Part shown: positions 780 through 8,057 of the stretch, in pieces
Layout: each line of letters opens with the position of its first letter
Numbering within the stretch: the stretch's first letter is position 1
Assembly: GCA_029245345.1 (NCBI GenBank)
Contig: JAQWPM010000020.1
Span: 1-34,266, forward strand
Reading direction: 5' to 3'
DNA from: Longimicrobiales bacterium
GTDB lineage: Bacteria; Gemmatimonadota; Gemmatimonadetes; Longimicrobiales; Gaopeijiaceae
DNA: 34,266 nt
Notes under the pieces: generated by a model
What the model was told of the DNA's origin: nothing
The model's input: only the letters and a program-made list of their open reading frames with translations
Database searches by the model: none
Position numbers and translations under genes: made by a program

Positions 780-1451
780 GTGCGCATCAACATCGTCTCG
801 ATCTTCCCGAGTTTCTTCGAAGGCCCTCTTGGACTGTCCATTCCGAAGCGGGCCTCTGAGGCGGGCTTGGTCGAGTACAACCTCATCGACTTACGCGACT
901 ACACCCACGACAAGCACCGGACCGTGGATGCTCTCCCATACGGGGGAGGGGCGGGGATGGTGATGAAGCCCGAACCGTTCTTTGAGGCGATGGATGACGT
1001 CGCGCCTGTGGGCCCGGTCGTGCTACTGTCCGCTCGGGGCCGTCCGTTCACGCATGATGACGCGGTACGATTGAGCGTGCAGCCCGATCTAACCCTTCTG
1101 TGTGGTCACTATAAAGACGTGGACCAACGCGTGGCCGACCATCTGGCGACCGAAGAGATCTCCATCGGTGACTATGTACTGTCCGGGGGAGAGGTCGGGG
1201 CGTTGGTCATCACGGACGCGGTCGTGCGACTCTTGCCCGGAGCGATCGGAGACCACGAGGCTGCATCAACCGATTCGTTCTACGATGCAGGACAGGTCAG
1301 CGCTCCGTCCTACACTCGACCGGCGGAGTACCGAGGGCACGAAGTGCCAGAAGTACTACTCTCGGGTGATCACGCGAAGATCGATGAGTGGAAGAAGGAG
1401 CAGGCCGAACGGATCACGGTGGAACGGAGACCGGAGTTGAGCAGAGACTAG
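780..1451 (+). CDS. trmD: tRNA (guanine37-N1)-methyltransferase TrmD
   Basis: TrmD transfers a methyl group from S-adenosylmethionine to G37 of tRNAs reading CNN codons, preventing +1 frameshifts. The SPOUT-fold signatures are clear: INIVSIFPSFF at the N terminus, YGGGAGMVMKPEP near residue 60, LCGHYKDVDQR near 110, and the SAM-binding knot SIGDYVLSGGE near 130. The C-terminal helical domain has the substrate motif PSYTRPAEYRG. At 223 residues it is slightly shorter than the usual 230-255, mainly at the C terminus. It starts with GTG at 780, two bases after the rimM stop. The stop codon at 1449-1451 overlaps the stop of the convergent dehydratase gene. The usual partner rplS is not directly downstream but 2.2 kb away. 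Confidence 0.97.
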   Translation: MRINIVSIFPSFFEGPLGLSIPKRASEAGLVEYNLIDLRDYTHDKHRTVDALPYGGGAGMVMKPEPFFEAMDDVAPVGPVVLLSARGRPFTHDDAVRLSVQPDLTLLCGHYKDVDQRVADHLATEEISIGDYVLSGGEVGALVITDAVVRLLPGAIGDHEAASTDSFYDAGQVSAPSYTRPAEYRGHEVPEVLLSGDHAKIDEWKKEQAERITVERRPELSRD

Positions 1452-2434
1452 TTCCAGCTCAAGCCACGCAGTTGCTCGGTGTCCAAATTGCCCCCGCTCA
1501 AGACGGCAACGACCTTCGCTCCGGCTGGCGCCTTTACGAGCCCCTGAAGCAGAGCTCCGACCGGTGCCGCTGCCGCACCCTCGGCCACGAGCTTAGCTCG
1601 CTCCATGAGCCAGAGGAGCGCTTCGAAGATCTGTTGGTCAGGCAACGTCACTATTTCGTCGACAAATCGGGCCGCCACCGAGCGTGTGTTGTAGCCGATC
1701 CTTCTTACACGAAGTCCATCGATTACACAGTCGACTTCGTCGAGCGTCACCTGATGGCCGGCTTCAACGCTGAGCTTCATGGCGGGGGCACCAGAGGATT
1801 CTACGCCAATAATCCGCACCTCCGGGTTGATGCTCTTTGCTGCCATCGACACGCCGGAAATGAGCCCGCCCCCTCCTATGGGCACCACGATCACATCCAC
1901 ATCGGGGAAGTCCTCCATGATCTCGAGGCCGACCGTCCCTTGTCCCGCGATCAGCCGAGGATCGTCGAAGGGGTGTATATAGGTCAGCCCTCGCTCCTCC
2001 ACGAGCTCCAACGCCTTCTCGTTGGCTTCATCCCAGATCGTGCCGTGTAGGATGACTTCTGCCCCGTAGCCCTCCGTCGCTGCGATCTTTGACGGAGTCG
2101 CGTTCTCGGCCATACACACCACGGCCTTTACGCCGTGTTGCCGAGCCGCGATCGCCACACCTTGGGAGTGGTTGCCCGCGGACGAGCAGATGACTCCGCG
2201 GGCCTTTTCTTCGACCGTCAGTTGGCCGATCAGATTCGTCGGGCCGCGTACCTTGTACGATCCACCCCTTTGGAAGATCTCCGCCTTTAGGCGCATGTCG
2301 AAGCCGGTGGCCTCGCTAAGGGAGCGGGATGTGAGCAGTGGCGTGTGGTACGTGTGCGGCGCGACTCGAGCGCGCGCTGCTTCGAAGTCGTCCCTCGTCA
2401 GTGACAGATCGAGGTCCAGCTCATAGAGGCTCAA
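1448..2434 (-). CDS. PLP-dependent threonine/serine dehydratase-like protein
   Basis: A fold-type II PLP enzyme of the threonine ammonia-lyase / serine racemase group, which deaminates threonine or serine to the 2-oxoacid. Visible features are the PLP lysine in GGSYKVRG (Lys about 61), the substrate loop SSAGNHSQG, the phosphate-binding loop GGGGLISG near residue 180, and a C-terminal VLSGGN motif. There is no ACT domain, so it resembles the short catabolic type (about 320-330 residues) rather than the feedback-inhibited IlvA. The frame stays open into the upstream peptidase gene, but the family starts much later. A TTG at 2434-2432 with GGGGAA just upstream gives 328 residues, and it begins three bases after the peptidase stop. 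Which of threonine or serine is the substrate cannot be decided from sequence. Confidence 0.88.
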   Translation of the reverse strand: MSLYELDLDLSLTRDDFEAARARVAPHTYHTPLLTSRSLSEATGFDMRLKAEIFQRGGSYKVRGPTNLIGQLTVEEKARGVICSSAGNHSQGVAIAARQHGVKAVVCMAENATPSKIAATEGYGAEVILHGTIWDEANEKALELVEERGLTYIHPFDDPRLIAGQGTVGLEIMEDFPDVDVIVVPIGGGGLISGVSMAAKSINPEVRIIGVESSGAPAMKLSVEAGHQVTLDEVDCVIDGLRVRRIGYNTRSVAARFVDEIVTLPDQQIFEALLWLMERAKLVAEGAAAAPVGALLQGLVKAPAGAKVVAVLSGGNLDTEQLRGLSWN

Positions 2435-2436
2435 CG

Positions 2437-3504
2437 TCAGTTCCCCAGTCCTTCCATTCCGCCTTCTTTCCATGCCGGCTTCGGCCCATCGGCGAGGAAA
2501 CGGACCGCCTCCACCGCGGCGTCTACCAGGGCCGCCATGTGCCCGAAGTCGACCATCGCTACCTCGTCGGACGGCTGATGGTAGTCGGTATGCATATTGA
2601 ACGACGACAGGGTGTGCGCGGGGATACCCAGGCGCGCAAACGCGATGTTGTCGCTGCGAAAGAAGAAATTCTGGTCGAGGCGGGTGTCTGCGACGATCGG
2701 AGATCCAGCGGCACTGAGCTGGTCGCCCATCGTGGTGCGCTCGAAGCCCGTCAGCCAACCCTTCCCAAAGCCGCCCGATAATGAGTCGGGACGCCCGATC
2801 ATCTCGATCTGAAGATCCGCGACGGTCTGCTCCATCGGGATCACAGGGTTGTCGATGTAGTAACGCGTCCCGAGCAGACCCATCTCTTCTGCCGTGCTGA
2901 GCAAGATGATGATGGTCCGGCGGGGTGCGGTGCCGCTCTCGATGATGTCCCGGGCGATCTCCAGCACCGCGACGGTTCCAGATCCGTCGTCGTCGGCTCC
3001 GTTGTATATCGAATCACCATCGACCGGCTGACCTATGCCGACGTGGTCGAAGTGAGCTCCTAGGATCACGGCTTCTCCCGCGACTTCGGGGTCCGCGCCG
3101 CGAATGATGCCGACGACGTTGACCTCGGTGTCCAAGATCCTGTCCGCAGAAATCGTGTCGAAGTCGATGGTCGCAGATGCAATAGTCAGACGCTCGCGAC
3201 CGCGAATCTCCACTCGTGCCATGGGCACCGTCTGGAAGTACCCATCGTCGCCGGCTGGCTCCACGCCGTAACGCTCGAGCTCAGCGGCTAGGAAGCGAGC
3301 CGCCTTAGCAGCGCCTTCCGTTCCGGTGCGACGCCCTTCCATAGAATCGGCGGCCAGTGTGGAGAGGAGGCTCTCAAGCCGCTCGGCCCTCGATTGATCC
3401 GTGTCGGCGAGGCCGACCGCTGCTTCCTCGACTTCTCCTTCTCCGCCTCCACAGGCAGCCGCGAGGGCGATCATGATTAGGATGGGAATCCGTAGAATGC
3501 GCAT
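2437..3504 (-). CDS. M28 family aminopeptidase, putative lipoprotein
   Basis: A zinc peptidase of the M28 family, expected to remove N-terminal residues from peptides outside the cytoplasm. The start at 3504 is chosen because it gives MRILRIPILIMIALAAAC, a lipoprotein signal with Cys18, and has GGAG about 8 bases upstream. A longer in-frame extension to 3564 would bury the signal. The zinc-site motifs are AHFDHVG (His151, Asp153), GADDDGSG (Asp171-173), TAEEMGLLG (Glu206-207) and the distal histidines in HTDYHQPSDE. It lies upstream of the dehydratase on the same strand with three bases between them, so the two form a unit. It reads divergently from rplS. The substrate is unknown. Confidence 0.9.
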   Translation of the reverse strand: MRILRIPILIMIALAAACGGGEGEVEEAAVGLADTDQSRAERLESLLSTLAADSMEGRRTGTEGAAKAARFLAAELERYGVEPAGDDGYFQTVPMARVEIRGRERLTIASATIDFDTISADRILDTEVNVVGIIRGADPEVAGEAVILGAHFDHVGIGQPVDGDSIYNGADDDGSGTVAVLEIARDIIESGTAPRRTIIILLSTAEEMGLLGTRYYIDNPVIPMEQTVADLQIEMIGRPDSLSGGFGKGWLTGFERTTMGDQLSAAGSPIVADTRLDQNFFFRSDNIAFARLGIPAHTLSSFNMHTDYHQPSDEVAMVDFGHMAALVDAAVEAVRFLADGPKPAWKEGGMEGLGN

Positions 3505-3653
3505 GGTAGCTCCGGATGGGGATTGAGACGGGCCAAGATGGCTCGTTCCGGCCCGATACGACACCCGTAGGGGGGGGACTTCACCCTCTCAATAACCTGA
3601 TTACATTACTGGTCTCTCTAAGAACGCCTTCGGCAATACCGTGGAGCCGAATT

Positions 3654-4007
3654 ATGTCCGATGTGATCAAAGAAATCGAAAAAGAGCTACTCCGGGACGA
3701 CCTCCCCGAGTTCGCACCTGGTGACACTATCAAGGTGCTTTATCTCGTCCGTGAGGGGGCCAAAGAGCGCGTCCAGGCGTTCGAGGGTGTGTGCATAGCT
3801 CGCAAGCACGGTGGGCTCGATGAGACCTTCACCGTTCGCAAGATCGCCAGTGGTGTAGGTGTGGAGCGTATCTTCCCGCTACAGGCCCCCACAGTATCTG
3901 GCATCGAAGTGGTTCGCCGTGGCCGAGTCCGCCGCGCGAAGCTCTACTACCTCCGGGGCCGTCGTGGTAAGTCCGCCAGGATCCCAGAGAAGCGCACCGT
4001 TCGCTGA
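3654..4007 (+). CDS. rplS: 50S ribosomal protein bL19
   Basis: bL19 sits at the subunit interface of the ribosome, near the 30S side. The 117-residue product matches the family in length and in its motifs: [43 protein letters not shown] and the basic C-terminal [17 protein letters not shown]. The ATG at 3654 is preceded by GGAG nine bases upstream; longer in-frame openings would add unrelated residues. The 149 bases between this start and the divergent M28 gene must hold promoters for both sides. They include a run of seven to eight G residues near 3571-3578, but I see no clear -35/-10 pair. rnhB follows after 13 bases. Confidence 0.97.
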
Positions 4008-4020
4008 TTGTGACCCCGGC

Positions 4021-4659
4021 ATGAAGCCGGACTCTGCAAGGTTACCGCGGCCCCAGGACTTGCTCGAATACGAGCGTCGGTTCTGGGGCCGCGGTCTTTT
4101 TATGGCGGGTGTCGATGAGGCGGGCCGAGGTCCGCTTGCTGGCCCGGTAGTCGCGGCGGCGGTGATTCTCCCGGCAGGTGTCTCCGTCGATGGCGCGGAC
4201 GATTCCAAACAGCTGAGTGCCCAGACACGGGAGGAACTCTACGGGGCCATTACCAGCGCGGCGCTCGCTTTCGGCGTCGGAGCTGCATCCGTTCATGAGA
4301 TCGATCGGCGCAACATCCTCCGGGCGACGACCGTCGCGATGCAGCGTGCGTTGGATGCCCTTGATGCGCAGCCCGATCACATCGTCGTGGACGGCCTGCC
4401 CGTGAAACACTTAGGTAGAGAGCACGACGCTGTCGTGGGCGGAGACGGGATCGTGCACAGCATCGGGTGCGCATCGATCCTCGCGAAGGTCGTGCGGGAT
4501 CGGCTCATGCAGCGCCTGGCGCTCCGCTATCCCGGGTACGGCTGGGAGCGCAACATGGGCTATGGCACGGCGGAACACCGTGCTGCGATCGATGAGCTCG
4601 GCCTCACGCCTCATCATCGTCTTACATTTACAGGGCTGCAGTACGCATTAGAACTGTGA
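4021..4659 (+). CDS. rnhB: Ribonuclease HII
   Basis: RNase HII cleaves RNA in RNA-DNA hybrids and starts removal of single ribonucleotides from DNA. The catalytic core begins with AGVDEAGRGPLAGP (Asp32, Glu33) and continues with VVDGLP, SIGCASILAKV and a YPGYGWERNMGYGT segment, the family's usual order. The length is 212 residues. The ATG at 4021 keeps the common N-terminal helix (LLEYERRFWGRG) in front of the core. It has no good ribosome binding site. An internal ATG at 4102 follows a strong hairpin and T-run and would still give a nearly complete core, but it would remove the helix many relatives share. Position after rplS is the usual one. Confidence 0.95.
   Translation: MKPDSARLPRPQDLLEYERRFWGRGLFMAGVDEAGRGPLAGPVVAAAVILPAGVSVDGADDSKQLSAQTREELYGAITSAALAFGVGAASVHEIDRRNILRATTVAMQRALDALDAQPDHIVVDGLPVKHLGREHDAVVGGDGIVHSIGCASILAKVVRDRLMQRLALRYPGYGWERNMGYGTAEHRAAIDELGLTPHHRLTFTGLQYALEL
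4044..4101 (+). terminator. Terminator-like hairpin inside the 5' end of rnhB
   Basis: A perfect 13-base inverted repeat, ACCGCGGCCCCAG at 4044-4056 and CTGGGGCCGCGGT at 4083-4095, is followed at once by CTTTTT (4096-4101). The intervening bases extend the stem with a few more pairs, including G-U. They also contain a small inner hairpin, GCTCG-AATA-CGAGC, at 4062-4075. The result is a long GC-rich rod with a U-tract, the classic form of an intrinsic terminator. It follows rplS by 37 bases but lies within the rnhB reading frame. It could end the rplS transcript, attenuate rnhB, or mark a later rnhB start. Confidence 0.75.
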
Positions 4660-7507: not shown

Positions 7508-8057
7508 CGGGAAACGATTGCGAAGCTGAAGGCGGGAGGCGTTAGAGTGCCCCATCCGTACAGGGTAGAGGTAGGGGTTAGACGTAAGGGTGGGACCTTA
7601 CCTATTTGGGGGCTTGCCAACCGCACCCGCGCGCCTTGTCCCCCCCGACCTAGCTGACCGCAACTAGCCCCTGCGCGGCACCCAGCCACACCTAGCTATC
7701 CAGCTCTGTTTCGCTCGTTCCATCCACCTGGCCAACGCGCGAAGCCCTTGGACGCGCATGCAGGACAGCGAACGCGCTGTCCCAGTACCTGTGAGTCGCG
7801 CAGAACCGCCGCGTTCAAGATGACGCCATCGGCGTTGAGGACCGGTACCATCGGTAGGACCTCGATGCGTGAGGGACTGAGGGCAGCCACGCAAGCCCGT
7901 GATCAGACGAGTGAAACAGTGCTGGATAGCTGGAGCGGCGCCCAACGGCCCAGTGGCCACGAGGCAGTCGAATCCCTTGTCAGTGCCGCGTCCATGAACG
8001 AGCATAAAAAGGATCCGCCTACCTAAGTGCGACAAATGACCGAACTTTCCCCCGACC
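7508..8057 (+). other. Low-coding stretch between the small membrane protein and the GNAT gene
   Basis: Several frames are open for 60-150 codons on both strands, as expected in GC-rich DNA. Only a short reverse-strand frame at 7696-7851 has protein-like content (listed separately). No RNA gene, repeat array, terminator with a U-tract or transposase was recognised. Together with 6403-7147 this looks like a region of gene decay. Confidence 0.5.
7696..7851 (-). CDS. Short ORF, possible fragment of a small CxxC protein
   Basis: Read from the ATG at 7851-7849, which has GAGG about eight bases upstream, the product is 51 residues. It begins MVPVLNADGVILNAAVLRDS and ends CPACASKGFARWPGGWNERNRAG before a TAG. 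One CxxC and the WPGGW segment recall small proteins in which a CPxC element is followed by W-P-x-G-W-D-x-H and a final Cys, forming a zinc knuckle. Here the His/Cys part is missing, which would fit decay or truncation. I recall the pattern only loosely. It may equally be a chance frame in a non-coding stretch. Confidence 0.3.
   Translation of the reverse strand: MVPVLNADGVILNAAVLRDSQVLGQRVRCPACASKGFARWPGGWNERNRAG

Follow-up and report, generated by a model that had tools for sequence, protein, structure and literature searches.

The genes for ribosomal protein L19 (rplS) and RNase HII (rnhB) follow one another in the window, the whole 34,266-nucleotide stretch of DNA that was analysed, which comes from a genome of 3.8 Mb in 30 contigs. 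The rnhB start codon lies 13 nt after the rplS stop codon. A long hairpin begins 37 nt after that stop codon and 23 nt after the rnhB start codon, occupies rnhB codons 8-25 and ends 75 nt into the gene. The features of the junction are these:

3654..4007, + strand: rplS, the upstream gene, encoding ribosomal protein L19 (Pfam PF01245, E 3.6e-48; NCBIfam TIGR01024).
4016..4030, + strand: small hairpin CCGGC-ATGAA-GCCGG with the rnhB start codon within its loop (from the sequence).
4021..4659, + strand: rnhB, encoding RNase HII, start ATG at 4021, no Shine-Dalgarno-like motif upstream (Pfam PF01351, RNase_HII, E 1.3e-39).
4044..4066, + strand: 5' arm of the terminator-like hairpin, 23 pairs of which the outer 13 are perfect (sequence, folding and covariation).
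4067..4070, + strand: loop AATA, in codons Glu16-Tyr17 (folding).
4071..4095, + strand: 3' arm with a 2-nt bulge (folding).
4096..4101, + strand: T-run CTTTTT, codons Leu26-Phe27 (silent positions selected in relatives).

Upstream of this junction, two minus-strand genes at 1448-3564 lie between trmD and rplS and encode, by eye, a threonine-dehydratase-like enzyme and a peptidase; they break the usual operon, so rplS would need a promoter of its own. The trmD/L19 operon has been described as poorly known in its regulation (PMC10931766). At the contig edge, a Glu/Ala-rich acidic tandem repeat at 1-214 ends just before rimM and is probably the C-terminus of S16 (rpsP).

The outer stem of the hairpin consists of 13 perfect Watson-Crick pairs between ACCGCGGCCCCAG (4044-4056) and CTGGGGCCGCGGT (4083-4095). 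It extends inward to 23 pairs, and the CTTTTT follows it directly, so that the element has the form of an intrinsic terminator: a stable GC-rich hairpin with a T-run immediately after. The RNA from 4030 to 4110 has a minimum free energy of -49.5 kcal/mol, against -27.8 +/- 3.0 kcal/mol for dinucleotide shuffles (z -7.1, 0/200). A preliminary description had pointed to a strong terminator-like hairpin in the rnhB frame, placed where a terminator of rplS would be; we concur on both counts, a distance of 37 nt being usual between a stop codon and a terminator. No other stem in the 34-kb window is as strong, and over 804 kb sampled from its own genome, where comparable stems are mostly intergenic, it still belongs to the strongest; a simple consensus scan recovered just part of it. 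No known RNA family in Rfam matched at the hairpin, and inspection of the locus by eye brought no antiterminator pairing to notice. A bidirectional terminator is ruled out by the lack of a T-run on the reverse strand.

We took rnhB loci from 55 relatives and then from the whole family, and fetched the rplS-rnhB junctions. The hairpin is present in 68 of 128 such loci from related Gemmatimonadota genomes, and folding energy over codons 9-25 is bimodal across the 128 junctions. Nearly all of the carriers belong to the window's own family, and a few to the sister family f3. Scanning with a covariance model of the element gave matches in 75 of 154 genomes from the order and in 54 of 395 genomes sampled from the phylum; strong matches are confined to families f1 and f3, and those in f1, together with the f3 matches that were checked, lie at the start of rnhB. 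In the window's own genome the model found one site (E 9e-15), the next forward-strand match having E 4.7, and the weak matches inspected elsewhere resemble ordinary intergenic stems, which rules out a repeated element. Of the 6 f3 loci with rnhB immediately downstream of rplS, 5 carry the hairpin (two of the five scored by eye); the 8 in which rnhB does not come next after rplS all lack it. Two f3 loci have a spacer of more than 250 nt, yet the hairpin still lies within rnhB. The distance from stop codon to stem is at least 27 nt in all 68 hairpin loci, with a median of 37. In most relatives without the hairpin, the junction contains no terminator of another kind, which argues that the element tunes expression and is not indispensable. 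One locus from another family of the class (L258, genome G387) carries, at the corresponding position of rnhB (about 590-650), a strong hairpin that differs from this one; it is without a T-run, adjoins an apparent frameshift and is possibly independent.

Pairing in the stem is phased with the codons, such that codons 10-13 (R-P/L-Q-D) pair with codons 21-24 (F-W-G/S-R). Among 65 distinct sequences, the pair formed by codon positions 11.2 and 23.1 is C-G in 35, U-A in 28 and U-G in 2, is never unpaired, and switches in 8 parsimony steps on a tree. With C-G the protein reads RPQD..FWGRG and with U-A it reads RLQD..FWSRG, so the exchange turns Pro11/Gly23 into Leu11/Ser23; in one locus (L021) a change from A-U to G-C has made Q12/W22 into R/R. 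Silent positions behave in the same way: the third base of Arg24 tracks position 9.3 (GC 39, AT 13; Fisher 1e-8, a test that ignores relatedness). Across the 65 sequences, 90.4% of cells are paired and 55 are double-change cells. The covariation score is 0.203 compared with 0.136 in shuffles (0/500), a control that also ignores relatedness, and the paired fraction falls to 31-47% when the partner is slid by 1-3 columns. Coevolution of residues 11 and 23 in the protein is unlikely because covariation extends to silent sites and because the two residues are separated in an AlphaFold model (mean pLDDT 87.9), where the helix formed by residues 16-22 has one of them at either end. As judged from the aligned sequences, Pro/Gly and Leu/Ser switch jointly because their codons must pair, and this stretch of the protein is partly dictated by the RNA.

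Since the shuffle control is blind to relatedness, we also used a null in which each protein was kept and its codons were redrawn, with 300 resamples per locus. The mean z was -3.33 for the 68 hairpin loci and -0.17 for loci without the hairpin; at most 3 of 300 resamples were as stable in 59/68 of the former and in 0/58 of the latter, and other windows within rnhB gave a mean z of about 0. This null is conservative, given that the protein itself has been shaped by the RNA. Taken together, the dinucleotide shuffles, the synonymous resampling and the other rnhB windows rule out chance or an artefact of codon use. A palindrome devoid of RNA function might be a side effect of the amino-acid sequence and of GC-rich codon use; the inner part, LEYE encoded by CTCGAGTACGAG, is complementary to itself when written in GC-rich codons, whether or not the relative carries the hairpin. 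Such an origin is contradicted by the synonymous nulls, the silent covariation, the paired amino-acid changes and the position of residues 11 and 23 at the two ends of the predicted helix, and we regard it as exceedingly improbable.

Selection extends beyond the stem to the T-run. In hairpin loci, codon 26 is CTT in 25 of 29 cases where it encodes Leu (usage 8%), CGT in 17 of 17 where it encodes Arg (usage 10%) and GTT in 10 of 13 where it encodes Val (usage 7%), while Gly25 is GGT in 48 of 60 (usage 15%). Downstream of the stem the T content reaches 3.7 where 2.0 would be expected; in loci without the hairpin it is 1.8 against 1.6, with no bias at codon 26. Hairpin and T-run are thus selected as a unit, as in an intrinsic terminator. 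In most relatives the T-run is just 3-5 T long, and a scan called a closed stem with a T-rich tail in just 44 of the 68 hairpin loci. The comparison of relatives that the preliminary description had proposed therefore came out in favour of the RNA: both the pairing and the T-run are retained much more strictly than the protein would demand, and the paired changes alter the peptide as well.

The T-run also bears on what the hairpin might do. Preference for T at silent sites would fit a terminator, and a stem acting alone would not need it. Twenty-three nearly continuous pairs are long enough for a site of the RNase III type, and a double-strand RNase could use the stem as a processing or stability site that divides the rplS and rnhB mRNAs; this would leave the conserved T-run unexplained, and we think it very improbable. 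Nor would the silent selection of T after the stem have a role if the hairpin acted on translation, with structure in the 5' part of the mRNA keeping RNase HII low beside its ribosomal-protein neighbour. There is precedent for such an arrangement in E. coli, where a strong structure at the 5' end of the ORF holds TrmD about 40-fold below the co-transcribed RpsP and RplS (PMC8643618), and the small hairpin over the rnhB start would suit it. The large hairpin, however, begins outside the initiation footprint, and we find a translational role improbable.

The rnhB start position alternates between ATG, GTG and TTG among relatives. In 36 of 67 hairpin loci a short CCGGC/GCCGG stem encloses the start codon in its loop, compared with 1 of 48 others. 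A Shine-Dalgarno-like motif precedes rnhB in 6 of 66 hairpin loci and rplS in 61 of 68. The preliminary description had allowed that rnhB might instead start at the ATG at 4102, directly after the T-run. We abandon that alternative: among 57 strict hairpin loci, 18 have no ATG, GTG or TTG between the hairpin and the active site and 56 have no ATG there, and this shortage of later start codons, together with the alternating upstream start, places the hairpin within the ORF. L125 is an exception: from the rplS stop codon to the hairpin it offers no start in frame, and it may differ.

These features of the start are those expected for coupled reinitiation, and they would accord with a terminator gated by translation, in which a ribosome that reinitiates at rnhB after finishing rplS covers the 5' arm and permits read-through, so that RNase HII tracks the supply of ribosomes; the preliminary description had already raised such a competition between rnhB translation and termination. 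The rnhB start is 13 nt from the rplS stop, rnhB is without a Shine-Dalgarno-like motif in 60 of 66 hairpin loci when rplS usually has one, and its start often sits in the small loop. In E. coli, on the other hand, a terminator within the first 100 bp of a coding sequence is efficient and is not subject to repression by ribosomes (PMC4824070); in addition, no antiterminator was noticed by eye, and a stop-to-stem distance of at least 27 nt avoids the influence of the ribosome. Gating of this kind is in our view unlikely. That only ribosomes handed over from rplS might defeat the terminator, given an rnhB start in a loop and without a Shine-Dalgarno sequence, is a rather doubtful proposition too; if true, it would tie RNase HII, and with it the repair of RNA-DNA hybrids, to ribosome output and would make the enzyme's own N-terminal codons an RNA switch.

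The reading that we favour, at a probability of roughly three in four, is a lineage-conserved intrinsic (Rho-independent) terminator or attenuator at the rplS-rnhB boundary, written in rnhB codons 8-27. The analysis computed its structure and covariation, the silent-site selection on both stem and T-run, its position, and its restriction to loci in which rnhB adjoins rplS. On leaving rplS, RNA polymerase would come to the hairpin too far on for the terminating ribosome to interfere, and would pass the hairpin's end too early for one translating rnhB to have caught up. Termination in vivo would be partial: most transcripts would end at the T-run, leaving the rplS mRNA protected by a hairpin at its 3' end, and read-through alone would yield RNase HII, at a low level. 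The purpose would be to set a high ratio of L19 to RNase HII. Terminated transcripts would carry a non-stop rnhB stub, where the weak start, lacking a Shine-Dalgarno sequence and held in a hairpin loop, may limit the loading of ribosomes.

In E. coli, ribosomes repress terminators that lie less than about 27-30 nt from a stop codon (PMC4824070), and the minimum distance of 27 nt among our 68 loci equals the threshold for escaping this repression. The hairpin has probably been placed in rnhB because this is the nearest site beyond ribosome interference at the rplS stop codon, and the behaviour of early-coding terminators in E. coli favours one that is constitutive and partial (PMC4824070). Several points count against a terminator: the T-run is short in most relatives, the scan called a closed stem with a T-rich tail in just 44 of 68 hairpin loci, relatives that have lost the hairpin mostly do without another terminator, and in the two f3 loci with long spacers a pure rplS terminator would not need to lie in rnhB.

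The element exemplifies plainly how the needs of an RNA regulatory signal override the choice of amino acids, with silent positions following suit. It suggests that terminators barred by the ribosome from a short intergenic gap can go into the next gene, and it is a warning that coupling between residues in protein alignments can stem from RNA. Our literature search, in which coverage of subscription papers was thin, found no earlier report of this element. Other hairpins were seen in coding sequence. In the window, a second terminator-like hairpin lies at 326-359 within rimM, a gene of the same operon family, about 91 nt from the start of the gene and with TTTT behind it. About half of 30 family members retain this hairpin and show compensatory changes (mean synonymous z of -1.9), and its T-run is found in the window's genus only. 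At locus L275, a strong hairpin with a CTTTT tail (7863-7906) overlaps the last 34 nt of a 386-codon ORF and is a candidate coding-overlapping terminator of its own gene.

The rpsU-dnaG and rplL-rpoB gene pairs of E. coli have internal terminators between a ribosomal-protein gene and an enzyme gene. The rnhB junction resembles them in its order of ribosomal-protein gene, hairpin and same-direction gene for a nucleic-acid enzyme needed in small amounts. Their terminators lie between the genes, whereas the rnhB element, for which read-through is predicted, is within coding sequence. Like intrinsic terminators at large, it has a GC-rich stem running straight into a T-run at the usual distance after a gene; unlike them, it lies wholly in the codons of the next gene and is kept by compensatory mutations that change amino acids. 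Leader attenuators, such as those of pyrBI and the amino-acid operons (PMC4824070), also place a terminator within a short translated stretch, but at the rnhB junction that stretch belongs to the enzyme itself and not to a leader peptide, and no antiterminator was seen by eye. Coding sequences harbour termination signals in other settings too, namely ORF-internal 3' ends in E. coli (PMC7815308) and early-coding terminators (PMC4824070); those cases are from single species or engineered, while the rnhB element is conserved and covaries across about 30 genera. In E. coli trmD (PMC8643618), a member of the same operon family, the beginning of an enzyme ORF near the L19 gene is likewise structured in the RNA. 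It acts on the translation of trmD, whereas the rnhB element has a selected T-run, and a large hairpin that starts 23 nt downstream of the start codon; a small hairpin takes in the start codon in 36 of 67 loci. The rnhB element would set a high L19:RNase HII ratio, a task that in E. coli falls to the translational structure of trmD.
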